Below are positions 27,769 to 42,054 of a stretch of 56,498 nt of DNA, piece after piece. Location of the stretch: the NCBI GenBank assembly GCA_030066985.1, contig JASJAN010000057.1, positions 1 through 56,498 of the forward strand. The letters are read 5' to 3'. Numbering within the stretch: the stretch's first letter is position 1; each line of letters opens with the position of its first letter. The notes under the pieces are model-generated. The model made no database searches and was not told where the DNA came from. It saw only the letters and a program-made list of their open reading frames with translations. Position numbers and translations under genes: made by a program. The stretch comes from Desulfobacterales bacterium. GTDB lineage: Bacteria > Desulfobacterota > Desulfobacteria > Desulfobacterales > JAHEIW01.

Positions 27769-29184
27769 TTGAGACAGCAATTGATGGAATCCATACCGCA
27801 ACATCATAGCCCAGTGCTGGTCGTAGACGATGATGAGGGTCTGTTGCTAAGCATTAAGGCAACCCTGGTCAGCTCGGGTTTGCCAGAGCCTGCTCTGGTT
27901 TCTGACAGCCGGCGGGTTATGGATTTGGTGCGCGAATATGATTTCCAATTAATTTTATTGGATCTAATGATGCCGCAATTGACCGGTATGGAGGTTTTAG
28001 AGACCATCAAAGCCGAATCTCCTGAGGTCGATTGTGTGATTGTCAGTGCCATCGACGATGTGTCATCTGCAGTGCAGGCCATGAGCTTGGGTGCTACCGA
28101 TTATCTGGTTAAACCACTCAACAGCGACAAGCTGGTCGCGCTGGTTAATCGAACGCTTGAAAAGGTTAGTGTTGAGCATGAGTTGGCACAGTTCGGCAGC
28201 AAAAAAGTATTTTCTAATTTGAAAAATCCGGCTGCATTCACCAACATGGTTGCCGAAGATGAAGCCATGGCTCTGGTTTTTCATCAAGTGGAAGCGGTTG
28301 CCGGTACGGACTATAGTGTCGTCATCAACGGTGAATCCGGCACCGGCAAGGAAATGCTGGCACGGGTCATCCATAAACTAAGCAACCGCTCCCAGGAACC
28401 CTTTTATGCAGTCAATATGGCTTCTTTTAGCAAAACGATTTTTGAAGATGAATTTTTCGGTCATGCGAAAGGTGCCTACACGGACGCCGCCTACGAAAAA
28501 ATTGGATTTTTCGAAGCCGCCAATGGCGGAACCTTGTTTCTAGATGAAATCACCGAATTGGATCCATCTCTGCAAGGCAAACTATTGCGGGTCATCGAGG
28601 AACGTGAGCTGTATCGACTGGGCAGCACTGAAATCCGCAACGTGGATGTTCGTATCATTGCCGCCACCAACAAAGATATCAACGATGAAATTCTTAAAGG
28701 AAAATTTCGAGCAGACCTTTATTACCGCATCAATATGTATAACATAAAGGTCCCGCCCCTCAGGGAGCGCAAAAAAGATATTCTGCCTATTGCCCGCCAT
28801 TTTCTCAGAACGCATGCTGAGACCAATAATAAAAAGATCCATTCACTGTCGCCAGAACTTGAACAACGACTGATGCAATACTCATTCCCGGGAAATGTGC
28901 GTGAACTGGAAAATATCATTGCTGCCGCAGTATTGCTGGAAAAATCCAACCGGCTGACCCTGGCTGCGACAATGAACGTGCTGCCCTATGAAGGTCCAGA
29001 GCGCCGCAAAAACGTGGAATTGCTGACACTCGAAGAACTTGAAAAACGTCATATTCAAAAAGTATTAAGTATAACAGGTGGAAACCGACCCAAAGCTGCC
29101 AAAATACTGGGTGTAAACGTCTCTACTGTATATCGGAAAATTGAGAAATACAATTTGGAACGACAAGACAATGATGATTGGTAA
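27769..29184 (+). CDS. sigma-54-dependent response regulator (NtrC family)
   Basis: A 471-residue activator. It has a receiver domain (DDD at 20-22, phospho-acceptor Asp65 in LILLDLMMP, Lys in LVKPL), an AAA+ domain (Walker A GESGTGKE, Walker B GGTLFLDEI, arginine-finger region FRADLYYRIN), and a Fis-type HTH at the C-terminus (GGNRPKAAKILGVNVSTVYR). The sigma-54 contact loop is GAYTDA (residues 235-240), not GAFTGA. The open frame starts at a TTG at 27769; ATG 27784 is an alternative, and neither has a strong ribosome site. No histidine kinase is adjacent. It is followed by a lone receiver and a PilZ protein on the same strand. Confidence 0.94.
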   Translation: MRQQLMESIPQHHSPVLVVDDDEGLLLSIKATLVSSGLPEPALVSDSRRVMDLVREYDFQLILLDLMMPQLTGMEVLETIKAESPEVDCVIVSAIDDVSSAVQAMSLGATDYLVKPLNSDKLVALVNRTLEKVSVEHELAQFGSKKVFSNLKNPAAFTNMVAEDEAMALVFHQVEAVAGTDYSVVINGESGTGKEMLARVIHKLSNRSQEPFYAVNMASFSKTIFEDEFFGHAKGAYTDAAYEKIGFFEAANGGTLFLDEITELDPSLQGKLLRVIEERELYRLGSTEIRNVDVRIIAATNKDINDEILKGKFRADLYYRINMYNIKVPPLRERKKDILPIARHFLRTHAETNNKKIHSLSPELEQRLMQYSFPGNVRELENIIAAAVLLEKSNRLTLAATMNVLPYEGPERRKNVELLTLEELEKRHIQKVLSITGGNRPKAAKILGVNVSTVYRKIEKYNLERQDNDDW

Positions 29185-31477: not shown

Positions 31478-32290
31478 TTAATGATAAAAACCGGTTTCCT
31501 TATCAGCGATTTCTAAAAATATCTTAGCGTTATCGATATCTGCAAGCACCCTGTCCCGTATACCTACCAATTTAGACGGTTCCACATCGATCTGCGTCAT
31601 GAGCAGCGCTGCCAACGGATCTTTGGCCAAAGCGTCTTCGTCGAGCTCGTGCTCCAGGACCGGGGCATAGCGATTTGCCAAGGCCACCATCTGAACCTGC
31701 AGGCGCTTGCCGGCAGAGGCGTCGTCCGGTTGATGATGATAAGACAAAACATCAATAAATGCTGAACTCAAACGCCATTTTTGAGCGATCAGACCGCCAA
31801 TGGCGCTATGATCGATACCAAATATCGTGCGTTCGGCGTGTGCCATTGTCCAGCTTCGGCGCGCAGCAAGGTCCATGGCTTCGCTATATTCCTGGTCAAA
31901 CTGTTGCTTTAGCGGTAATTTCCCCAGATCATGCATCAGCCCGCAAACAAAATAATCCTCCTGATCGGCCCAGGACACCCCTTTCAAGACCGCTAATGAT
32001 TTGGTAATCACACCCACAGCAACGCAGTGTTTCCAAAAGGGCGCACCGCAAAGGGTTCGGAAAGGTTTGCGCGCATGAAAATGATCAAGGATCGCAAGAC
32101 TTAGTACCAGATTTTTGACCGTGTTTATTCCCAGCATGATGATGGCGCGGCTGAGGGAAGAAACCGGCTGATTGAGAGAATAACAAGCAGAATTAATCAG
32201 CCGCAGAACCTGACCGGCAAGCGACGGGTCCAAGGCAATCAGTCGGTTCAGTTCGTTGGGTGAAGCGTGCGGATCATTGCAGGTCGCCAA
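31478..32290 (-). CDS. HDOD-domain protein, N-terminus interrupted by in-frame TGA
   Basis: An HDOD (HD-related output domain) signalling protein with a retained HD pair in GLMHDLGKLPL and SYHHQPDD. The longest stop-free reading starts at a TTG (32290). However, codons above it continue the family N-terminus (IEASVARIPSLSTTATKVLA) up to a TGA at 32357-32359. Nine codons further up, in the same frame, is ATG 32386. The gene is thus either inactivated by a nonsense change, started at a non-AUG codon after the TGA, or read through. It lies between the 32403 gene and the MBL gene on the minus strand. Confidence 0.75.
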   Translation of the reverse strand: MATCNDPHASPNELNRLIALDPSLAGQVLRLINSACYSLNQPVSSLSRAIIMLGINTVKNLVLSLAILDHFHARKPFRTLCGAPFWKHCVAVGVITKSLAVLKGVSWADQEDYFVCGLMHDLGKLPLKQQFDQEYSEAMDLAARRSWTMAHAERTIFGIDHSAIGGLIAQKWRLSSAFIDVLSYHHQPDDASAGKRLQVQMVALANRYAPVLEHELDEDALAKDPLAALLMTQIDVEPSKLVGIRDRVLADIDNAKIFLEIADKETGFYH

Positions 32291-32402
32291 AACCTTTGTA
32301 GCGGTCGTCGACAGACTGGGTATCCGGGCAACAGAGGCCTCGATATAATGTCGATATCAGGCTTGATCGCTGGAAAAGGCAGGCATCTTAAGCACTGTTA
32401 GC

Positions 32403-32864
32403 TTAGGCGGTGATGTAATCGCCTCGGTTAAATTTCATAACCTCCAAAGATGCCGTAATAAGCGTACGTTGGACAATGTCTTTGAGACTGTCGTCGTTCG
32501 GCAGCTGCTCCAATACTCCCGAAAGCTGCTCTTTTTCTTTGGCGATGGTGTTCAACAGCGGCTCAATACGTCTTAGCGTGACGTTCTGATTGGCCAGCTG
32601 GTCTTTATATTGATCGAGTAAATTCAGCAGGTTGTCAATGCGTTCAATTGTTGTCTGTCGGGCCATTGGTTCTGGCGCCGGGAATCGAACCGCGGCGATT
32701 GGATGCGTCTGGTGAGGTGTTGGAACCTTGGCAGGAGGTTGCTGAGAACGCTCAACCGACGCTTTGAGAATATTTTTAAATTCGGCATCCGAAGTCTTGT
32801 CTTTTGCTGCTGTTTTATCCGGGTAGGCGCTAGGTGCAATGTTATTGTTGCCGTCAATTTTCAT
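32403..32864 (-). CDS. conserved protein of unknown function, flagellar/HDOD neighbourhood
   Basis: A 153-residue soluble protein. The first about 75 residues are polar and probably disordered, with a Pro/Gln-rich linker. The C-terminal part is helical (IERIDNLLNLLDQYKDQLAN ... LPNDDSLKDIVQRTLITA). It ends EVMKFNRGDYITA, an ending I associate with a family of unknown function in Geobacter-like bacteria; this is from memory and was not searched. AAGGA is 8 nt before ATG 32864, which rules out ATG 32873. It is transcribed toward the HDOD gene. Confidence 0.72.
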   Translation of the reverse strand: MKIDGNNNIAPSAYPDKTAAKDKTSDAEFKNILKASVERSQQPPAKVPTPHQTHPIAAVRFPAPEPMARQTTIERIDNLLNLLDQYKDQLANQNVTLRRIEPLLNTIAKEKEQLSGVLEQLPNDDSLKDIVQRTLITASLEVMKFNRGDYITA

Positions 32865-32893
32865 GATGTACATCCTTGTCTATTGTTATGGTT

Positions 32894-32943
32894 AAGCAAT
32901 CCATCACCCGGTGCTTATGGCGACACGGGTGATTGCTTTTTTT
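32894..32943 (+). terminator. intrinsic terminator-like hairpin, plus-strand orientation
   Basis: AAGCAATC (32894-32901) pairs with GATTGCTT (32931-32938), with an inner ACCCG/CGGGT stem. A run of seven or more T follows on the plus strand. No plus-strand gene precedes it; the flanking genes are all minus. It therefore would stop antisense transcription, or act as a structured leader for the 32864 gene. Confidence 0.55.
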
Positions 32944-33095
32944 CTCGAAAAAATATTATGCAAAAATCATGCAAGAGTACTTGCCAGTTTTCTTTTTTTG
33001 TATATCGCTGAAATCATATCTGATATTTTCAACCTAAGCTCAAAGGAGCGAGCCGACATACCGATCCATGCGGCAGATTTTGCCCCAACCGCCAA

Positions 33096-33884
33096 TTATG
33101 GTGGCTCGATAACCTCTTTGACAGCCAATTCATTTTCGGCCACCACGCGGTTCTTCCCGGTGTCTTTGGCCACATAAAGGGCTTGATCGGCCCGTTGGAT
33201 GACAGAGTGGGTCGTGTCGCCTGTCTGATAGACGCTAATGCCAATCGAAATCGTAACGCTTAGAATCTGCCCGGCTTTTATATCATCTATAGCGTAGCGT
33301 GTATCCGCAATAGATTTGCAAATCAGTTTGGCTTTTTTTATGGCATTCGGCAAAGAGGCGTTGGATAAGACAATCACAAACTCTTCGCCCCCATATCGAC
33401 CGATAAAATCCTCATGCCGGATAAGGCTGTGGCATTTTTGGGTCAACGCCAGAAGAACGCGGTCGCCTGTCGGATGCCCGTATGCATCATTGATGGCCTT
33501 AAAATCATCAATATCAACCATCAAAACTGCAACATCAGTGGGTTTGCGGGTAATTTGTTCGACAAGGTGATCAATGTGCGCATCAAGCGCCTTACGGTTA
33601 TAAACCCCTGTTAGGCCATAGGTCACTGAATCTACTTTAGCCTTTTTGAGTTCATGGTTAAGGGTGCTGACCTGTTTTGACAGGATTTTTAGCTGTTTAC
33701 TGTCGCGTTCCTGCTTGTTGCGAACGGTTTTGCGGATATTGTCGATTTCGTGAATCAGTGCCTGCTTTAGCCGTTTGATGTCATCTAAACGGGTAAAACC
33801 TTCTATTTTTTCGCTTTGGCGGTAAATCTTTTGATGATATTTCTGGTTATCGCTATCCAGGGTAACCATGGCCTTGGACAGCAA
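33096..33884 (-). CDS. diguanylate cyclase (GGDEF), C-terminal part of an amber-split gene
   Basis: This part encodes the GGDEF domain, which makes cyclic di-GMP from two GTP. It shows GLTGVYNRKALD, the active motif RYGGEEFVIVL, and an inhibitory-site RHED five residues before it. A coiled coil lies upstream (KQLKILSKQVSTLNHELKKA). The open frame restarts at a TTG (33884). Upstream codons in the same frame continue without break except for a TAG at 33915-33917, so this is the second part of the gene that starts at 34220. If the TAG were sense, the product would be about 374 residues. Confidence 0.85.
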   Translation of the reverse strand: MLSKAMVTLDSDNQKYHQKIYRQSEKIEGFTRLDDIKRLKQALIHEIDNIRKTVRNKQERDSKQLKILSKQVSTLNHELKKAKVDSVTYGLTGVYNRKALDAHIDHLVEQITRKPTDVAVLMVDIDDFKAINDAYGHPTGDRVLLALTQKCHSLIRHEDFIGRYGGEEFVIVLSNASLPNAIKKAKLICKSIADTRYAIDDIKAGQILSVTISIGISVYQTGDTTHSVIQRADQALYVAKDTGKNRVVAENELAVKEVIEPP

Positions 33885-33914
33885 GTCAATGATGTCTTTG
33901 AGCTTTTTTTCGCG

Positions 33915-34220
33915 CTAGGCCAGATATTGCTGTTGCCGATCGATAAATCTCTGAATCCGTTTGCGATGTTTGCGAAAAGCCGCTGCCGTTTTTTTAAGTT
34001 TCGGGGTGCGCGTAAATTCGGCTTCAAGATCAACGAGCTGCTGTTTGAACGTATCGCTTTTGAGCTCTTTGATGTCTAATGCAAAATCATGAATAAACTT
34101 CAAAAGCGCCTGTATGGTGGACAGAAAAAAATCTTTTTTGGCCAAACAGGTCTCTAGACCTTCAAGCAATTCTTGCGGATCAATGGCCGCTGGCGGCTCC
34201 TTTTTCAGTCCCCATTTCAT
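33915..34220 (-). CDS. N-terminal part of the amber-split diguanylate cyclase
   Basis: A 101-residue helical region (MKWGLKKEPP ... DRQQQYLA) ends at TAG 33915-33917. The frame then continues as REKKLKDIIDLLSKAM into the GGDEF part, so one base change would restore a single ORF. The start ATG at 34220 overlaps the stop of the HTH regulator as ATGA. GTG 34238 is an unlikely alternative. By itself this fragment has no recognised catalytic domain. It may act as a sensory or dimerisation module of the cyclase. Confidence 0.75.
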   Translation of the reverse strand: MKWGLKKEPPAAIDPQELLEGLETCLAKKDFFLSTIQALLKFIHDFALDIKELKSDTFKQQLVDLEAEFTRTPKLKKTAAAFRKHRKRIQRFIDRQQQYLA

Positions 34221-35005
34221 CGGATCCACTCTGCGCAATGCTCTTCAATAGATGGTTTGTGGGTAATTGGGTGGTCATTGAACACGGGCGCTGCGGTGAT
34301 CAAATAAGCACCTTGCGGTTCCTTTAAACCCAAAATAGCGCATTTGATTTTTACACCCTGTGATTGATGATTCTTAATATAGATCCGGCATCCGGAAGGC
34401 ATGCCCCTGTCCCCCAATGCCTGGCGCTTAACACACGAAATGACCTGTTCCAGTGATCGGGGGTGGATGATTTTTTCAATGCCCAGCCCCACCAGTTGTT
34501 TTGCTCCAATTTCACAAAGATCTGCCATCTGTGTGTTTCCAGCCCAAAAATACAGCTCCTTGATGATCGCCGCCGGAACATCCAATTGATGAATAAACTG
34601 AACCCGCGGATAATAGGCGTCCTGATAATAGCGGCAGTTCTCACAACCTACCGCGCAATTGAGTTTTGCATCGTTGCGGGCGCTGAAGCACACATCCAAC
34701 TGGTTTCGATAAACAATACACTGGTGGCAATTTGATCCGTGGAGATGGTCTTGATAGTAGCACCAACAATTCTGAAAAGTCCGAAAAACCGGTGCATTCA
34801 AATCTGCTTTCTCAAGTTCCGCCGGTATATTCTGTCCATTGGCTTTTAAAAAATACAATAAATTTTGAACCGGAATTTCATATTTTTTGCCGCGCCGGTT
34901 GGCTGCAAGTTTTTTAGAGCGAATCCAGTACCCAACGGTTGTGCGGCCCACCGCACATAGGTGCGCTGCCTGGGTCACCGATAGGGTTTTGGGGCAATCT
35001 TCCAT
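34217..35005 (-). CDS. HTH regulator with eight-cysteine cluster and PAS-like domain
   Basis: A 262-residue protein. Residues about 7-58 form an excisionase/MerR-type winged HTH (LSVTQAAHLCAVGRTTVGYW then KYEIPVQNLLYFL). Residues 80-124 hold eight cysteines (C80, C82, C93, C96, C106, C117, C121, C124), which suggests zinc or iron-sulfur binding. A PAS-like segment follows (VPAAIIKELYFWAGNTQMAD ... IYIKNHQSQGV). GAGGAG is upstream of the ATG. It is coupled to the diguanylate cyclase gene by a 4-nt overlap, so a redox or metal signal controlling c-di-GMP genes is a plausible but unproven role. Confidence 0.78.
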   Translation of the reverse strand: MEDCPKTLSVTQAAHLCAVGRTTVGYWIRSKKLAANRRGKKYEIPVQNLLYFLKANGQNIPAELEKADLNAPVFRTFQNCWCYYQDHLHGSNCHQCIVYRNQLDVCFSARNDAKLNCAVGCENCRYYQDAYYPRVQFIHQLDVPAAIIKELYFWAGNTQMADLCEIGAKQLVGLGIEKIIHPRSLEQVISCVKRQALGDRGMPSGCRIYIKNHQSQGVKIKCAILGLKEPQGAYLITAAPVFNDHPITHKPSIEEHCAEWIR

Positions 35006-35146
35006 TCTGACGTTTAACTCCTCGCATAAAAGAATCTATAATAGTATCGGAATTTTGGCCGAAAACTTGATTGTTAAAATGATTGTTCATGGGACTTTTT
35101 TATTTTGGTAGGCGTCCAACAGCAGGTTGTCACCAATGATATATTC

Positions 35147-35203
35147 GCAAAATGCAAAATTTTTGCTCGCAATTTGCAAATAGGCAATATTTTGCATATT
35201 TTG
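35147..35203. repeat. clustered GCAAAAT/ATTTTGC repeats, possible operator
   Basis: GCAAAATGCAAAAT (35147-35160) is followed by TTTGCAAAT-like and GGCAAT copies and by ATTTTGCATATTTTG (35189-35203), which is its near inverse. At least five TTGC/GCAA half-sites occur in 57 nt, about 145-200 nt upstream of the HTH regulator start. Binding by that or another regulator is inferred only. Confidence 0.45.
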
Positions 35204-35454
35204 ATCAAATGAACAAATTTTTGGGCGCAGATTGATCTAACTGAAGCGATCACGACAACCTACTTTTGTTGATAACTATAAATAAATTAAGTACATATGG
35301 TAAAAGTTTGCGATACCGTCCCTGGATTGAGTGCTGCCATCCCAGGGCCATATTTGCCTATTCGTCAGATATTTGACCCACATTTGCACATTCTGCCCAC
35401 AAAAATTGTAACCATCAAAGGTTCTTTTCAAATACAACCTGAAAATGATTAAAT

Positions 35455-35470
35455 TTACAACTTATTGTAA
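35455..35470. promoter_or_regulatory. palindrome TTACAA-N4-TTGTAA, candidate sigma-54 enhancer site
   Basis: This is a perfect 6+6 dyad with a 4-nt spacer. It is located about 100-115 nt upstream of the predicted start of the sigma-54-driven RNA, the usual distance for an NtrC-type activator site. Which activator binds is unknown; the NtrC-type protein encoded at 27769 is one candidate. Confidence 0.45.
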
Positions 35471-35542
35471 TTAATAAATAATCAAGCTGTTAAACGCCGT
35501 ATCGCCAATCGATTAAAAAATTGGCCTTTATATGTTTTCAAA

Positions 35543-35558
35543 TGGCACAGTAGTTGCA
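35543..35558 (+). promoter_or_regulatory. sigma-54 promoter of candidate small RNA
   Basis: TGGCAC-AGTAG-TTGCA matches the -24/-12 consensus TGGCAC-N5-TTGCA at every conserved base, with the required 10 nt between the GG and GC. The predicted start point is about 35568-35569. The downstream hairpin and terminator begin within 10 nt of it. Confidence 0.8.
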
Positions 35559-35567
35559 AAGATGTAT

Positions 35568-35652
35568 GGCAAATATGGAATGAAGTTTCCTCCTTTCCTT
35601 CATTCCCACCTCCGACGAACCCTGTTAGGCACCCCCCCCTAACAGGGTTTTT
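35568..35652 (+). ncRNA. candidate sigma-54-dependent small RNA with anti-Shine-Dalgarno loop
   Basis: The predicted RNA is about 85 nt. Hairpin 1 pairs GGAATGAAG (35577-35585) with CTTCATTCC (35598-35606). Its 12-nt loop TTTCCTCCTTTC contains CCTCCTTTC, the sequence at the 3' tail of 16S rRNA. A linker CACCTCCGACG follows. The terminator hairpin (35618-35649) has a C-rich loop. No ORF of note lies inside. C-rich single-stranded loops of this kind bind ribosome sites in characterised sRNAs; the role here is inferred. Confidence 0.65.
35618..35652 (+). terminator. intrinsic terminator of the candidate small RNA
   Basis: AACCCTGTTAG (35618-35628) and CTAACAGGGTT (35639-35649) form a perfect 11-bp stem around loop GCACCCCCCC. 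A run of five T (35648-35652) ends the structure. The stem is strong and correctly placed for plus-strand termination. Confidence 0.85.
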
Positions 35653-35824
35653 CCTTGCATTGACAAGATTTTGGCAAAAACTGTCAAGGCTTTGTCAGAA
35701 ATCGTAAGTGTATCAATAGGTTTTGCGATTTTAGCGCCCCGTATAGGTGGCAAAAACATCGTTCCAATGCCTTTTTCCATGATTTTCTCAAACCAACGGC
35801 TCATAGCGGGCAGACGCTTTTATT

Positions 35825-35840
35825 TGGCATACCTATTGCT
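35825..35840 (+). promoter_or_regulatory. sigma-54 promoter of the HDOD gene
   Basis: TGGCAT-ACCTA-TTGCT keeps the invariant GG and GC with exact 10-nt spacing. Transcription would begin near 35851, leaving a leader of about 135 nt before ATG 35986. It lies downstream of the small-RNA terminator, so the two transcripts are separate. Confidence 0.7.
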
Positions 35841-35985
35841 GTTGTTTTATATCAAATCAAACCTATCTATGAAGGGCTATAAAGCACGCCAAACAGGGTA
35901 TCGACATCTACCAGCGGAATCCTATCCCCTTGAGGCGCCGTTACCTATTCCATTGCAGGCCTAATTTGTGCTGGGAGGATTTGGA

Positions 35986-36918
35986 ATGACAACTGAGGAA
36001 ACAATCGAAAGAATCGAAAGCAAAATCAAAAAACTGCCTCTGGTCGATACGGAGGTTGTCGACATCATTACCCTGCTCAACAGTCCGGCCAGCAATTTTG
36101 ATCAAATCGTTGAAAAATTATCGCCAAGTCTAGCAGCCCGCTTTTTGAACATGGCCAACTCGGCCTATTATGGTGGACGTGAAGTGCGATCGATCACCTA
36201 TGCGGTCAAGCTGTTGGGTTATGGTAAAATGAAAGATATTTTAATAAGCTCCATATTAATGGATCATTTTACAAGGCGGCTGAAGCAATTTGATTTCGAG
36301 AAATTCCTTAAACAGGCCCAGGTTTGCGCTGCGGTTGCCAAGGTCTTGGGTGAAATTCTTAATTTTAACCAGTTAGATGATCTTTTCACAGTCGCGACGC
36401 TGCAAAACATCGGAAAGCTGGTTATCGCGGTATATTTTAAGCCCGAACATGAACAAATTGTGAGCTTAAAAAAATCACAAGATTTACCGTCTTGTGAAGC
36501 GGAAAAAATGATCCTTGGCGTCAGCCATGCTGAAATCGGCGCACTGGTGTTACAGCGCTTCAATGTACCCCAGGAAATATGTGATGCCGTTCGATTTCAT
36601 GACAGCCGTGATACCGTGGTGCCCATGAGCAGCGATAACTATTTGCAGCATATCGCCCGCCAGGCCACCACCATTGTCGGCCAATTTTCGCTGCCCAAAG
36701 ATGTCGCACCCATGGATCTTTATCATATGTTGCGGGCCACCATTGAGGAGGGCAAAAGAAATTACCGCGAACAGGTACAAACCCAGTTGCGCTCAAGTGG
36801 GTATCCGGAGATTTTCCCTTCCTTGCTCAAGCAGGCGACGGATCTGGTGATCAATGATTTAAAGGCGCATTTGCGCGCCCGCGCGACAACTTCTGTGGAA
36901 ATTGATCAAGAAAATTGA
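35986..36918 (+). CDS. HDOD-domain protein with degenerate HD motif
   Basis: A 310-residue HDOD signalling protein (MTTEETIERIESKIKKLPLV, then ITLLNSPASNFDQIVEKLSP, MANSAYYGG, RSITYAVKLLGYGKM). The position that reads LHDxGK in catalytic or near-catalytic relatives is LQNIGKLVI here, so metal binding is lost. The protein likely acts by protein interaction. ATG 35986 is chosen because GGGAGG lies 8 nt upstream; the longer frame opens at 35968. A sigma-54 promoter precedes it. It is the only plus-strand gene in this part of the window. Confidence 0.9.
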   Translation: MTTEETIERIESKIKKLPLVDTEVVDIITLLNSPASNFDQIVEKLSPSLAARFLNMANSAYYGGREVRSITYAVKLLGYGKMKDILISSILMDHFTRRLKQFDFEKFLKQAQVCAAVAKVLGEILNFNQLDDLFTVATLQNIGKLVIAVYFKPEHEQIVSLKKSQDLPSCEAEKMILGVSHAEIGALVLQRFNVPQEICDAVRFHDSRDTVVPMSSDNYLQHIARQATTIVGQFSLPKDVAPMDLYHMLRATIEEGKRNYREQVQTQLRSSGYPEIFPSLLKQATDLVINDLKAHLRARATTSVEIDQEN

Positions 36919-37178
36919 TGTGCATCCTTAGCTATATGCAGACGATAAGATATGAAAAAAGGTTAGCGTTGATGGAGATTTCTTTGAGGTGATCGATTTT
37001 TCCAGGTTTTTTTAGCACAAAAGAGCAGGCACTCTTGACCATTCATTACAAGACGGACGTCATGAATCGGGGAGCGCTGGCTCTTAAAGCCCATTCCGCG
37101 ACAGCCGTGTGGAAACTTCGAGTCCCAGGTGACATAGTAAAAAATGCATTTGTGGCAAGTAGTGGGCATGCAGTTCCT

Positions 37179-37313
37179 TGGAGTAATGGAGTGCTGGAGT
37201 TTTGGAGTATTGCAAAACCGATTTATAACCGTCTTCGAATTTGGAGGTAGCAAAGTAATGGTGTCCGATCAAACCACAGTGCTCGGGTGGTTTCGAATTT
37301 ATCCATTACTCCA
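37179..37313. repeat. GGAGTNNT octamer array with inverted copy in a 408-nt gap
   Basis: Four tandem octamers GGAGTAAT, GGAGTGCT, GGAGTTTT, GGAGTATT lie at 37180-37211. TGGAGTAATGGA (37179-37190) has a perfect inverse at 37302-37313. The gap 36919-37326 separates converging transcription units and has no convincing gene. A weak AACCAC/GTGGTT hairpin (about 37272-37292) is also present. Confidence 0.65.
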
Positions 37314-37326
37314 GATTCTGAAAGTG

Positions 37327-37797
37327 TTAATCCCCGTCCCGCAAATCGACACGAATTTCCATATCCTCTAACAGTCTGTAAGCATCCCGTCGATCCGTAT
37401 CTGAGCTTTCCCCAACAACAGTGATGATCGCCTGAAGGACTTCATTGCTGATGCCGGCATTTTTGAGCGTAATAATGTCATTCGCGGTCGTAAACTCAAT
37501 TGAACGCACATCCTTGCCGTAAATAATGGGCGCAGTATCTTTGAGAAAAGAGCCTTCCTGAATGACCATTTGGATCGTTTTTTCACTAAGCCCCGCCTTT
37601 TTCATGTCAATAATTTCCTGGACGCTAAAAGCAGCGGTTTCAACCACCTTTTCTCGCACTATCAACTGGATGGTAGCGTCGCTAACACCCGCTTTTTTTA
37701 AACGCACGATACTGTCGCTTTTCAGACCGAAAACCGGTTGGGTGGCCATAAATGACAGGAGAACAACAAAACAAGATATGGTGTATGCTTTTTTCAT
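37327..37797 (-). CDS. exported triple-repeat protein at the end of the flagellar operon
   Basis: A 156-residue protein with a signal peptide (MKKAYTISCFVVLLSFMATQPVFG). Three repeats of about 20 residues follow: SDSIVRLKKAGVSDATIQLI, VQEIIDMKKAGLSEKTIQMV and ANDIITLKNAGISNEVLQAI. The repeats look like small helical hairpins with a conserved (L/M)KKAG turn. It ends with a charged tail. The start follows flgK-flgL on the same strand, with the flgL stop just 3 nt away in the upstream direction, so it is probably co-transcribed. The function is unknown. Confidence 0.78.
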   Translation of the reverse strand: MKKAYTISCFVVLLSFMATQPVFGLKSDSIVRLKKAGVSDATIQLIVREKVVETAAFSVQEIIDMKKAGLSEKTIQMVIQEGSFLKDTAPIIYGKDVRSIEFTTANDIITLKNAGISNEVLQAIITVVGESSDTDRRDAYRLLEDMEIRVDLRDGD

Positions 37798-37800
37798 AGT

Positions 37801-38715
37801 TTATTTCAAAAATTGAACCAATCCGGGTTGAATGACACGCGCCGCGGTGGCCAATGTGGTTTGATATGCCAATTCAATATTTTGCAGTTCGACCACCGCT
37901 TTGGTGATATCAGCTTCCTCTTCCTTGGCCATCAAATCCTGGATTTTGGGCTTATAGGTCTGCCAATGCCTTTCGGTTATCTCCAATTGATAATAGATCG
38001 ATGAGTTGGCCGCGCGGATGTTATTTATCTGGGTTCGGCCTTGATCGAGCATTCCAGATTGGGTCGAAATGGCATCCGAATCGTCATTTTCCAATCCCAC
38101 GATCAAATCCCGAATATGGTCAAAAATGTTAATACCGCCACTGGCGGCATCGTGAAAGATCGGCTGGCCGTCCGCATCGATGCTGACCTCGGTGTTGGTG
38201 GCCACGATAAAATTCACATCTCCATTGTCCCCATTGTAACTGGCCGTATATTTGTCATATGTGGTCAACTGGGTGTCATCGCGTGAAAAAGGCGCTGTTT
38301 TGGTTAGGTAGCCAGAAAAAAGATAGTTATCATTTTGGGTAGAATTGGACAGATCCATAATCTGGTCATACAACCGTTTGACCTCCTCAGCTGCCAATAG
38401 GCGGCTCTCGGCAGTACCCGCGGCTTCTGTTTGCCCGATGGCCCGCACAACCTGCAACAAATCATCCACCAGCTTTAACGTTGATTCGGTTACATCCAGA
38501 CGCGTCATACCGGTCTGAATATTGGTTTGATATTGATCAATGGATTCCAGTGTTTGCCGGTAATCCAATATCTTTCCCATCCCGATGGGGTCATCGGATG
38601 GTTTGTTGATGCGCTTTTGGGTGGCAATGATCCGCTGCCGATCATAAAGCGCTTCATTCTGCGCTGTAAGATACCGCATCAGCGACTGTGTCATGGTATT
38701 TTGTGTTACGCGCAT
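37801..38715 (-). CDS. flgL: flagellar hook-filament junction protein FlgL
   Basis: A 304-residue axial protein that joins hook and filament. The N-terminus RVTQNTMTQSLMRYLTAQNE and the flagellin-like C-terminal helix (IQDLMAKEEEADITKAVVEL, ending VIQPGLVQFL) match FlgL. SDDPIGMGKILDYR is the conserved NKPSDDP block. GGAGGGG precedes ATG 38715. It follows flgK, the usual order. Export by the flagellar type III system without a signal peptide is expected. Confidence 0.95.
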   Translation of the reverse strand: MRVTQNTMTQSLMRYLTAQNEALYDRQRIIATQKRINKPSDDPIGMGKILDYRQTLESIDQYQTNIQTGMTRLDVTESTLKLVDDLLQVVRAIGQTEAAGTAESRLLAAEEVKRLYDQIMDLSNSTQNDNYLFSGYLTKTAPFSRDDTQLTTYDKYTASYNGDNGDVNFIVATNTEVSIDADGQPIFHDAASGGINIFDHIRDLIVGLENDDSDAISTQSGMLDQGRTQINNIRAANSSIYYQLEITERHWQTYKPKIQDLMAKEEEADITKAVVELQNIELAYQTTLATAARVIQPGLVQFLK

Positions 38716-38809
38716 GATTCATCCCCTCCTTTTGGGATGCCGCTTTTCGGTAACATCACCGACCCGGATCCGGACCGTCAGACCCTTATCCTTGTACGGT
38801 TGTGGCGGC

Positions 38810-40198
38810 TTATACCATCTGCAACACCGTTTTGAGCATTTCATCGGCCGCACTGATCATTTTGGCAGCGGCCGAATACGCATTTTGAAATTTGATTAAA
38901 TTAATCATCTCCTCATCCAGGGAAACCCCGGAAATCGATTCACGCCGATTTTCCAGCTGGGCCATCATATCCGATTGGTGGTGATAATAGGCATCTGCTT
39001 TGAGAACTTCATTGCCGGTATCCCTGATGAGCGCACTGTAGTAGTCATTGTAGGTCGCGGTATTGCCGTTCATGCTCAGCTGGTATTGTAAATTAACAAT
39101 TTGGATCGCCTGACGATTATCCCCGGGAACCGTCAATGGATCGGCTGCGGCGGCAATCAGATCCAAATTACCGGCAATATTGGGATTAAGTTGGATATTG
39201 CCTGCCCCGAGACCGTTAAAAAAAACCTCACCAGCGGTTCCGTCTAGGGCAAAACCGGCCTGATGTAGGGTGTTGATATCGGTCATTAACGTCTGCACCA
39301 GGGCATCCAAGCTATTCATATCGGCAGGAATGATCGCATCGCGCACCTCCAGGTAGCCTTTTAGCTTACCACCGTCAATATCGCCGGTAATATTTATTGG
39401 GCTGCCGCTTCTGTCCAGCCAAACCACATCTTGCAGTCCGAAAGCATTGATCTGGGTGGACAGCTGCCAGTATTGACCGTCACCCACCAGCAATCGTCCA
39501 TCGGCCACCATCACATGAACGGCCCCGTTGGAATCTTCATAAGTATTGACATCAATCAGCTCTGAAAGCTCTTTAAGCATTTGTTCGCGCTGATCGCGGT
39601 AATCATTGGCGTTGGAAACACCGGCTTCGGTGGAAACTATTTTGTGGTTCAAATCAGCCAATTGTTCCGACAGGCGGTTGATGTCCGCCACCGTTCCCTT
39701 GACGGCAATATCCAGATCCTCTTGGGATTGCCTCAGATCAGCGTCCAGTTGGTTAAACTTACCGGCTAAAACCTGACTGTTGGTGACCAGCACCTGTCTT
39801 TCAGTGGCCCCGGCGGGATTGTTTGTCAATGATTGCCAGGCATCCCAAAACTGGCTCAAGGCATAACTCAGCCCGTATCCTTCGCTTTCGTTGAAAATCA
39901 TCTCAACCATTTCAACCGCCCCTTTTTGAGCGTCCCATCGACCTAAGCTCTGATTTTCATTATTTATTTGGTCCCCCAAAAATCGATCATAAATACGCTC
40001 GATGCTATCGGCCGTAACCCCATTGCCCACCCAACCAATAGACGTATACTGAGGCTCGTTGGTTGACAACTGCAAGCGCTGGCGAGAATAGCCGGGAGTA
40101 TTCACATTGGCAATATTGTGGCTGGTGACATTCAGGGCCTTTTGCTGGATCAATAAGGCATTGCTTGAAACACTTAAAATTCCACCAACATCGGTCAT
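38810..40198 (-). CDS. flgK: flagellar hook-associated protein FlgK
   Basis: A 462-residue hook-filament junction protein. The N-terminal rod motif ALNVTSHNIANVNTPGYSRQRL and C-terminal DEEMINLIKFQNAYSAAAKM form the terminal coiled coil shared by axial proteins. The central region carries the variable domain. Length is on the short side of the family. AAGGAAAACACA precedes the ATG. Its operon neighbours are flgL downstream and an HDOD gene upstream. Confidence 0.96.
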   Translation of the reverse strand: MTDVGGILSVSSNALLIQQKALNVTSHNIANVNTPGYSRQRLQLSTNEPQYTSIGWVGNGVTADSIERIYDRFLGDQINNENQSLGRWDAQKGAVEMVEMIFNESEGYGLSYALSQFWDAWQSLTNNPAGATERQVLVTNSQVLAGKFNQLDADLRQSQEDLDIAVKGTVADINRLSEQLADLNHKIVSTEAGVSNANDYRDQREQMLKELSELIDVNTYEDSNGAVHVMVADGRLLVGDGQYWQLSTQINAFGLQDVVWLDRSGSPINITGDIDGGKLKGYLEVRDAIIPADMNSLDALVQTLMTDINTLHQAGFALDGTAGEVFFNGLGAGNIQLNPNIAGNLDLIAAAADPLTVPGDNRQAIQIVNLQYQLSMNGNTATYNDYYSALIRDTGNEVLKADAYYHHQSDMMAQLENRRESISGVSLDEEMINLIKFQNAYSAAAKMISAADEMLKTVLQMV

Positions 40199-40246
40199 TG
40201 TGTTTTCCTTAGTGTGATCATTTTAGTTTCCACTGTTCAATCGCTT

Positions 40247-41089
40247 TTAGTTTGGGCCAATCACCTCGGATAGCTCTGTTACCCATTGCATGGTTTGACT
40301 GGCCACCTTTTCCAGATGAGCAGGCGTAAGTCCCAGACGCTCGCTGACAGCGGCACTCGGCTGGTGTTGCAGACCATCCCGACCGATGCCGATACCGATC
40401 ATGATACTCATAAAATTGGCCACGTGGACAATATCCAACATGGTGCTGATTTGATCGGACGCTTCAGGCTTATGATGCCATTGAACCGCGTTGACAATTT
40501 CCACCGGCAAAGACCAGCGGGTTAATATTTGGGCACCCACCTCTGCATGGTTCGTGCCCAATACCATGGTCTCTGCTTCCTCAAAACTGACCCATTCTGA
40601 AACAGCGTTTTCAATTTTCTTAAAATCGTCCTTAACAAACTCTCCTAAAACCAATTTGCCAACATCATGCAGCAACGCTGCGGTAAATATTTCCTCCGCA
40701 GCTTCCACTTTCAATTCTTTTACCAGGCCTTCGGCTGCAACCGAGACGGCAATTGAGTGGCGCCACAGCTCTCCCGGCGCCAGGTCGTAACCAGGTACCG
40801 GTTTATCCATGATGGCGCTGACGCACGTAGCAATTACCATTTGAATCAGGCGCTTTAGCCCCAGCAATATCACGGCCTGCCGAATTGAACCAATTTTTGA
40901 GGGAATGCCAAAGTAAGCCGAATTGGCCAGTCTGAGAACATTGGCTGTCAATCCTGGGTCCTGACGCAATATTTCCTCTATCTGAGAAACACGCATGGCC
41001 GGGTCATCGATCAACCCCAGTAATTTGACGGCCGTCCCCGGCATGCCCGGAAACGACTTAATAGCGGCGGCGATTTTTCGAGCTTCCAT
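40247..41089 (-). CDS. HDOD-domain protein (paralog A)
   Basis: A 280-residue HDOD protein with intact HD pair in LLHDVGKLVLGEF and WHHKPEA. It also has LRLANSAYFGIPSKIGSIRQ and LGLKRLIQMVIATCV. It closely resembles the adjacent HDOD gene at 41203 in length and in most motifs, so the two are a tandem duplication. AAGGATATAATCA precedes the ATG. The position between cheD and flgK suggests a link to motility control, as shown for some HDOD proteins in other bacteria. Confidence 0.93.
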   Translation of the reverse strand: MEARKIAAAIKSFPGMPGTAVKLLGLIDDPAMRVSQIEEILRQDPGLTANVLRLANSAYFGIPSKIGSIRQAVILLGLKRLIQMVIATCVSAIMDKPVPGYDLAPGELWRHSIAVSVAAEGLVKELKVEAAEEIFTAALLHDVGKLVLGEFVKDDFKKIENAVSEWVSFEEAETMVLGTNHAEVGAQILTRWSLPVEIVNAVQWHHKPEASDQISTMLDIVHVANFMSIMIGIGIGRDGLQHQPSAAVSERLGLTPAHLEKVASQTMQWVTELSEVIGPN

Positions 41090-41202
41090 TGATTATATCC
41101 TTGACCATTTCAGTAATGGCATAATGTCTTCCACAATCATTTGCGCACCTTCAAAACCCATTTTGCCAATCCTTGCATCTGGGTTTAGCGACCTCTGAAT
41201 GC

Positions 41203-42054
41203 CTAATTGAATGCCAGGGCATTTGACAATTCATCGACCCAATGGGCCACTTTTTCTGAAATGCCCTCGAATTGATCAAGCTGTATCCCCAAGCGATCAA
41301 TGACGGTCGGTGATAATTCAACCACATGACCGGCTTCGGGGCCGCTGGTATCCGGAGTTTGACACAAGACGTTCGCTAGATAAACCACATCCATAGGCAT
41401 GCTACTGGCGTCCGGCGAATCCGGGTCATGGTGCCAGCGCACCGCGTTGATGACATCCGCCGGCAAATTCCACTGGGCTAAAATACGCGCCCCGATTTCA
41501 GCGTGATCGGCACCCAGAATCATGTTTTCAGCCACGACAAACGGAATTCCTTTAGCCGCAATTGCTTGGATCTCCTCCAATTCTTCCTTAACATAAGAAC
41601 CCAAGACCAACTTGCCGATATCGTGCAGCAGTGCAGGGGTAAATATATCTTCGGTCTTTACTCTTTTTTTGTGTTTGACCAGTGCTTCGGCCGCAATCGA
41701 TACCGCAATCGAATGGCGCCATAAATCCCCTGACGGCAAATCGTAACCAGGCACGGATTTGTCCATAATCGCGCTCACACAAGAAGCGACCACCAGCTGA
41801 ATGAGACGCTTTAAACCCAAAACAATAACCGCCTGCTTCAGGGAACCGATTTTGGAGGGAAGACCAAAATATGCCGAATTGGCCAGTTTGAGCACATTGG
41901 CCGTCAAACCGGGATCATAGCGCAAAATGTCTTCAATCTCAGAAACCGTCGTATCGGGTTCCTCAAGCAATGCCAGCATCTTGGCCCCGGCTCCGGGCAT
42001 GGTTGGAAATGATTTTACTCTGGCCAAAATCTCATTTAATCTGGTGTCTCTCAC
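41203..42054 (-). CDS. HDOD-domain protein (paralog B)
   Basis: A 283-residue HDOD protein, tandem paralog of 40247-41089. It shares LKLANSAYFGLPSKIGSLKQ, LLHDIGKLVLGSY and WHHDPDS. It starts at a GTG (42054) that overlaps the cheD stop as GTGA, so it is translationally coupled to the chemoreceptor deamidase gene. The C-terminus (KVAHWVDELSNAL) matches the paralog's end. The function is inferred from family only. Confidence 0.93.
   Translation of the reverse strand: MRDTRLNEILARVKSFPTMPGAGAKMLALLEEPDTTVSEIEDILRYDPGLTANVLKLANSAYFGLPSKIGSLKQAVIVLGLKRLIQLVVASCVSAIMDKSVPGYDLPSGDLWRHSIAVSIAAEALVKHKKRVKTEDIFTPALLHDIGKLVLGSYVKEELEEIQAIAAKGIPFVVAENMILGADHAEIGARILAQWNLPADVINAVRWHHDPDSPDASSMPMDVVYLANVLCQTPDTSGPEAGHVVELSPTVIDRLGIQLDQFEGISEKVAHWVDELSNALAFN

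Follow-up and report, generated by a model that had tools for sequence, protein, structure and literature searches.

A conserved candidate sigma-54-dependent small RNA with two anti-Shine-Dalgarno displays in Desulfobacterales

We describe a small RNA (sRNA) gene at positions 35543-35652 of a contig from a Desulfobacterales bacterium (JASJAN010000057.1 of assembly GCA_030066985.1; the whole stretch of 56,498 nucleotides (nt) is called the window, and coordinates are on its forward strand). The gene consists of a -24/-12 promoter, a first hairpin (hairpin 1), a linker, and a terminator. Computation shows this anatomy, its conservation in relatives, covariation of its stems, a conserved promoter, CCUCC motifs that folding leaves exposed, and linkage to flagellar genes, and finds no Hfq in the genomes that carry it. 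We consider it probable that the product is a sigma-54-controlled, Hfq-independent, trans-acting sRNA that occludes ribosome-binding sites, an analogue of NfeR1 and CJnc230/FlmE that belongs to neither by the tests made.

Anatomy of the sRNA gene

The elements of the gene are as follows.

35543-35557, + strand: sigma-54 promoter TGGCACAGTAGTTGC (TGGCAC-N5-TTGC), from the sequence
35569-35652, + strand: predicted sRNA of about 84 nt, its start placed by promoter spacing
35577-35606, + strand: hairpin 1, 9 base pairs (bp), with the 12-nt loop UUUCCUCCUUUC at 35586-35597, from folding
35607-35616, + strand: single-stranded linker CACCUCCGAC, the second anti-Shine-Dalgarno (anti-SD) motif (CACCUCC), from folding
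35617-35652, + strand: intrinsic terminator with a 13-bp stem (35617-35650), a C-rich loop, and a U run, from folding

An earlier note, made from the letters of this DNA, had described a promoter that matches the sigma-54 consensus at every key base, a 9-bp hairpin, and an 11-bp terminator with a T-run in an RNA of about 85 nt. The exact -24/-12 consensus is present: TGGCACAGTAGTTGC alone in the window agrees with TGGCACN5TTGCA at every defined base; sites that deviate from it at no more than two bases are as frequent as chance would give (21 versus 25.9 expected). Folding recovers the 9-bp hairpin, and the predicted length agrees with the earlier one to the extent that promoter spacing sets the start. 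The terminator and its T-run also stand, with a computed stem of 13 rather than 11 bp. Compared with dinucleotide shuffles, the whole RNA (z -7.8), hairpin 1 with its flanks (z -4.2), and the terminator (z -6.6) are all unusually stable, with 0 of 200 shuffles reaching native stability in each case. CCUCC lies in the loop of hairpin 1, and the second CACCUCC that the earlier note had placed in the linker is there. One match to the sRNA was found in its own genome.

The sRNA is conserved within the order

A blastn search found the sRNA in all six genomes of the family and, at an expect value (E) of 0.1 or less, gave matches in 43 of 194 genomes of the order, about half of them short with E between 0.001 and 0.1. 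A covariance model (R1), which we built from 21 copies of the sRNA with the promoter left out, recovered 32 loci at E<1e-7 in 30 of 389 genomes of the order, spanning nine families. These numbers are lower bounds, since 11 first-look candidates were scored per genome, of hundreds to thousands, and nine more genomes with weak R1 matches (E 0.01-0.1) were left uncounted. We additionally scanned genome contigs for the promoter followed by ACCTCC and CCCTG. Of the 46 stretches found, R1 confirmed 27, which are titled Desulfobacterales, Desulfobacteraceae, Deltaproteobacteria, Desulfatibacillum, or Olavius Delta 1 symbiont; R1 matched none of the remaining 19 even at E≤1, and we take these as chance. 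The earlier note had staked its proposal on conservation of the promoter-hairpin-terminator unit in relatives and had suggested Infernal/Rfam and covariance searches. The unit is conserved by blastn, by R1, by the pattern scan, and in the promoters of 33 of 34 aligned copies; the covariance search yielded the relatives above, and no Rfam family reached its threshold.

The alignment used below holds 34 copies (33 distinct sequences): 30 from the R1 search, one per genome; L118, the second copy of one genome; and L101, L102, and L123 from the pattern scan. Two genomes of family f22 have two copies each, G171 (L064 and L118) and G277 (L069 and G277:C124, the latter left out of the alignment), and the aligned copies from these genomes have lost the loop CCUCC and kept ACCUCCUU in the linker. 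The sRNA also occurs in L113, whose record bears the title Olavius sp. associated proteobacterium Delta 1, a symbiont of a gutless worm.

Stems covary and the anti-SD motifs are exposed

Standard pairs fill 97.4% of the alignment cells of the 33 distinct sequences, a figure that, like the other pairing figures, leans towards the structure because the alignment was fitted to it. Cells changed on both sides number 33, compared with a shuffle mean of 7.9 (0 of 500 shuffles as high), and seven pairs carry double-sided changes (10 of 500 shuffles as high), and shifting the partners one to three columns out of register lowers pairing to 37-57%. Both stems contribute: hairpin 1 is paired in 96.0% of cells with two doubly changed pairs, and the terminator in 98.5% with five. 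Copies of the f22 type carry GAATCAAG/TTGATTC in place of the GAATGAAG/CTTCATTC stem of hairpin 1.

The linker contains CCUCC in 34/34 copies and ACCUCC in 32/34; the loop contains CCUCC or CUCCUU in 28/34, and its flanks are conserved too in most copies. On average, the loop is unpaired with a probability of 0.93 and the linker with one of 0.85. The predicted energies of pairing with strong Shine-Dalgarno sites (loop with GAAAGGAGGAAA, -17.1; linker with UAAGGAGGUGAU, -14.2) are close to those of the textbook 16S tail (-15.6 and -17.7). The earlier note had read the loop and linker as a mimic of the 3' tail of 16S ribosomal RNA; they do repeat the textbook tail order, a comparison that uses the textbook sequence, as the tail itself was looked for in the six family genomes and not found. 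The linkers of f22 and f41 (ACCUCCUU) match the textbook tail further.

A conserved promoter with a candidate enhancer and activator

In all aligned copies but L073 (33 of 34), the model start is preceded at a distance of 7-13 nt by TGGCA[CT]-N5-TTGC, a pattern that occurs in 8 of 34000 shuffled upstream stretches. Three copies were found via the promoter and hence are not independent; of the other 31, which the RNA-only model finds, 30 have it. As judged from its sequence, the element is a putative transcription unit with a correctly spaced, conserved -24/-12 promoter. Two further features of the window bear on its control.

35364-35377, no strand assigned: GTC-N8-GAC dyad GTCAGATATTTGAC, candidate enhancer (upstream activating sequence), 179 nt before the -24 element
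27769-29184, + strand: NtrC-type response regulator, candidate activator, with Pfam receiver, sigma-54 interaction, and Fis-type helix-turn-helix domains

A strict GTC-N8-GAC dyad stands 165-181 nt upstream of the -24 element in 11 of 17 copies from families f1, f8, f30, and f54, a grouping chosen once the motif had been seen; shuffles gave a mean of 0.3 and a maximum of 3. The overall count is 11/34, with 0/17 in the remaining families, where three loose matches occur at other distances. We regard the dyad as a candidate enhancer site of a sigma-54 activator. The earlier note had instead pointed to a palindrome about 100 nt upstream. The palindrome TTACAACTTATTGTAA (35455-35470, about 75-90 nt before the -24 element) is not conserved, being exact in 1/34 copies and within two substitutions in 2/34, so the conserved dyad replaces it as the candidate site.

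The NtrC-type regulator, for which none of the 25 NCBIfam matches listed lies above its cut-off, may bind the dyad and activate the sRNA promoter. Its cluster occurs near the sRNA in 6 of 20 neighbourhoods. This synteny count covers the window and 19 other loci; a twentieth, L091, was left out because the sRNA was not located in it.

Linkage to flagellar genes and absence of detected Hfq

A flgK cluster occurs in 10 of the 20 neighbourhoods and a flgL cluster in 9 of those 10, with the members in the window named by family models. At L077 (bin36), the sRNA is 1.3 kb from a gene for a FliA-type sigma factor, and a FlhA-type (FHIPEP) gene follows at 4.5-6.7 kb. Carriage of the sRNA is associated with FlgI, which is found in 25/30 carriers and 11/30 non-carriers of the order (p 0.0005), non-carriers being genomes with no R1 match below 1e-7; by family, the counts are 9/9 versus 11/28 (p 0.0015) when two non-carriers from carrier families are dropped. 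At L081, L082, and L087, several long open reading frames (ORFs) match no Pfam family, and ORF calling is poor in these G+C-rich loci. The search for Hfq gave 0 hits in 30 carrier genomes, of which many are incomplete, with a control signal in 5 of 14 known genomes; this result fits Hfq-independent action as in NfeR1.

In 6 of 20 loci (the window, L075, L076, L078, L079, and L094, from f1, f54, and f22), an HDOD gene on the same strand begins no more than about 0.5 kb beyond the sRNA. In the window, a second sigma-54-like site, TGGCATACCTATTGC (35825-35839), precedes this gene (ORF 35968-36918). Four of the six loci (the window, L075, L076, and L079) have TGGCAT-N5-TTGC beyond the sRNA and ahead of or close to the HDOD ORF start, at about +280 to +350 in the last three. 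Sites of the form TGGCA[CT]-N5-TTGC are likewise found after the sRNA in two loci of f41, L089 and L092, where no HDOD gene follows. TTGACA/TGTCA repeats are seen at about 35661-35690 in the window, and at 31478-42054 four HDOD genes fall within 11 kb of a flagellar region. A divergent HTH_17 gene (34217-35005) adjoins the sRNA, and its cluster recurs in 7 of 20 neighbourhoods.

Candidate targets

The best nearby candidate target is the following gene.

37801-38715, - strand: flgL (NCBIfam FlgL above cut-off), whose Shine-Dalgarno (SD) sequence AAAAGGAGGGG is complementary to loop and linker

Within the examined slice of the window, flgL gave the strongest predicted duplex (-14.5 kcal/mol), followed by an HDOD gene (-14.0) and flgI (-13.7). 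Over nine loci, with start codons picked by script, flgL pairing was stronger than that of 321 other genes (p 0.00014). To compare leaders, we separated Flagellin_N loci (26, less L299, dropped as misplaced) into flagellin and flgL types by eye, with one of each checked against NCBIfam and the flagellin one falling below cut-off. GGAGG is present in 9/13 flgL-type leaders and absent from 11/12 flagellin-type leaders, the exception being L292 (f3). We predict that flgL would be repressed and most flagellins spared. The flagellin-type loci L294, L298, L304, L306, L308, L310, L312, L313, and L315-L317 share a common leader like CCTAGAAAAGGAG or CTAGGAAAGGA directly 5' of the start codon, and the GGA motifs in such leaders might be a CsrA site.

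Ribosome-binding-site occlusion and its alternatives

We favour occlusion of ribosome-binding sites because two published RNAs of similar anatomy, NfeR1 and CJnc230, act there. We infer the following course of events. An active enhancer-binding protein, perhaps the linked NtrC-type regulator, would switch on the promoter, and sigma-54 RNA polymerase would make an RNA of about 84 nt whose hairpin 1 loop and linker each present CCUCC in imitation of the 16S anti-SD tail. These motifs would pair with purine-rich SD sequences and keep the 30S subunit off, such that messenger RNAs (mRNAs) with a strong GGAGG, flgL among them, would be translated less during the sigma-54 programme, which is flagellar in many lineages. 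The earlier note had proposed a stress- or flagellar-timed repressor of translation, global or selective. Of this, an independently terminated sigma-54-type sRNA gene that exposes anti-SD motifs and is linked to flagellar genes in many lineages is borne out; repression, of either kind, is our deduction from these features, and secreted proteins are not enriched among genes whose SD matches the loop (see below).

Several results weigh against this explanation. Further pair types in the alignment do not exceed the shuffles (348 of 500 as high), six copies have no loop CCUCC, and in four copies the mean unpaired probability of the linker is just 0.21-0.55. The scanned neighbours in f3, f22, and f41 loci are non-flagellar. 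Compared with 96 other strong-SD genes, flgL does not pair clearly more strongly (p 0.07). Finally, a target class specific to the loop did not hold up. Secreted and substrate-binding proteins looked frequent among genes preceded by AAAGGAGGAAA-ATG, and by a home-made signal-peptide rule 45 of 98 ORFs (from 101 matches in six family genomes) were secreted, compared with 14 of 28 for another strong SD (from 30 loci of a longer list). We reject the secretion share as evidence because the control class shows the same share.

The 101 matches, spread over many unrelated genes, also speak for a broad translational brake, in which the anti-SD copies would lower initiation on strong-SD mRNAs as a class and not just at a few specific targets; the sole part invariant in 34/34 copies is, moreover, the generic CCUCC. 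Against such a brake, one gene copy must compete with many mRNAs, and most copies conserve loop flanks that a generic brake would not need. We hold it to be unlikely; the choice between selective action and a general brake can be tested with E. coli reporters. A related proposal has a sigma-54-switched mimic of the 16S tail, in bacteria without Hfq, serve a flagellar or stress programme by dampening the whole GGAGG class and sparing mRNAs whose sites are weaker. It draws on the leader counts (GGAGG in 9/13 flgL-type and 1/12 flagellin-type) and seems to us rather improbable.

The RNA could also serve as a decoy, imitating the 16S tail to attract some protein or nuclease specific for the anti-SD region. 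The textbook tail order of loop and linker, extended in f22 and f41, would suit this, but no gene for such a protein appeared among the neighbours scanned with Pfam (a part of them), and published RNAs of this anatomy base-pair with mRNA; we think a decoy very improbable. Hardly any more credible, indeed slightly less so, is a leader or attenuator of the downstream gene: the HDOD gene follows in six loci, but the other 14 of 20 have none, the terminator is conserved across the aligned copies, and in four of the six HDOD loci a further sigma-54-like site stands beyond the sRNA, ahead of or close to the HDOD start. We give practically no credence to a small-protein gene. The earlier note had seen no ORF; an ATG at 35580 does open 20 codons, and the closest copies read similarly, as they would when the RNA itself is almost identical. 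Across the 34 copies, however, the frame is not conserved, and we rejected the ORF as coding: ATGAAG is absent from nine copies, stops follow after three codons in two copies and after 12 in two, others shift frame or end elsewhere, and the start codon lies within the stem. We conclude that occlusion of ribosome-binding sites is the probable function of this sRNA.

Relation to known small RNAs

At Rfam gathering thresholds, the whole window yields only two transfer RNAs. The nearest family is ar14 (RF02344), which scores the window RNA at 36.5 bits (E 1.2e-5), below its gathering score of 58.8, and has no match at E≤1 in the relatives L055 and L072. The literature covered, with subscription sources largely outside its scope, holds no sRNA of this kind for Desulfobacterales, and the available portions of PMC11109978 and PMC11124144 contain no description of one. 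The claim of the earlier note that no named RNA fits thus stands as regards Rfam membership and is qualified by NfeR1/ar14 and CJnc230/FlmE, which share the principle. We call this a new sRNA family, of the anti-SD kind that is itself already known; what we call new, going by sequence features, is the combination of its own sigma-54 promoter, no Hfq found, and two anti-SD displays with an invariant linker. It matters as a conserved family without an above-threshold Rfam match in bacteria represented here mainly by metagenome records, and as a clean example in which a single sRNA gene joins a sigma-54 promoter of its own to a candidate enhancer and a twofold display of anti-SD sequence.

GlmY and Qrr are sRNAs with their own sigma-54 promoter and enhancer; they resemble the window RNA in the promoter and differ in structure and partners. 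Closer in principle is NfeR1 (ar14) of Sinorhizobium meliloti, an alphaproteobacterial RNA which has three hairpins with identical CCUCCUCCC, an unpaired anti-SD CCUCC, and a sigma-70 promoter, acts independently of Hfq, and silences ntrB at its translation initiation region (PMC10746234). The window RNA shares unpaired CCUCC motifs, and no Hfq was found in its carriers, but it has two hairpins, displays CCUCC in the linker and in a single loop, and has a sigma-54 promoter. CJnc230/FlmE of Campylobacter jejuni is described as an RpoN-dependent RNA with two stem-loops around an anti-SD stretch (CCUU only) that represses flgM and Cj1387c at their ribosome-binding sites; it arises by processing of the flgE mRNA and, in addition, by transcription from an RpoD promoter (PMC11187230). 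The window RNA likewise places two stem-loops around an anti-SD stretch. By its description, CJnc230 is set apart from it: the window RNA has its own -24/-12 promoter and terminator, and rather than lying 3' of flgE it has neighbours that include flgL, flgK, HDOD, and HTH_17 genes.
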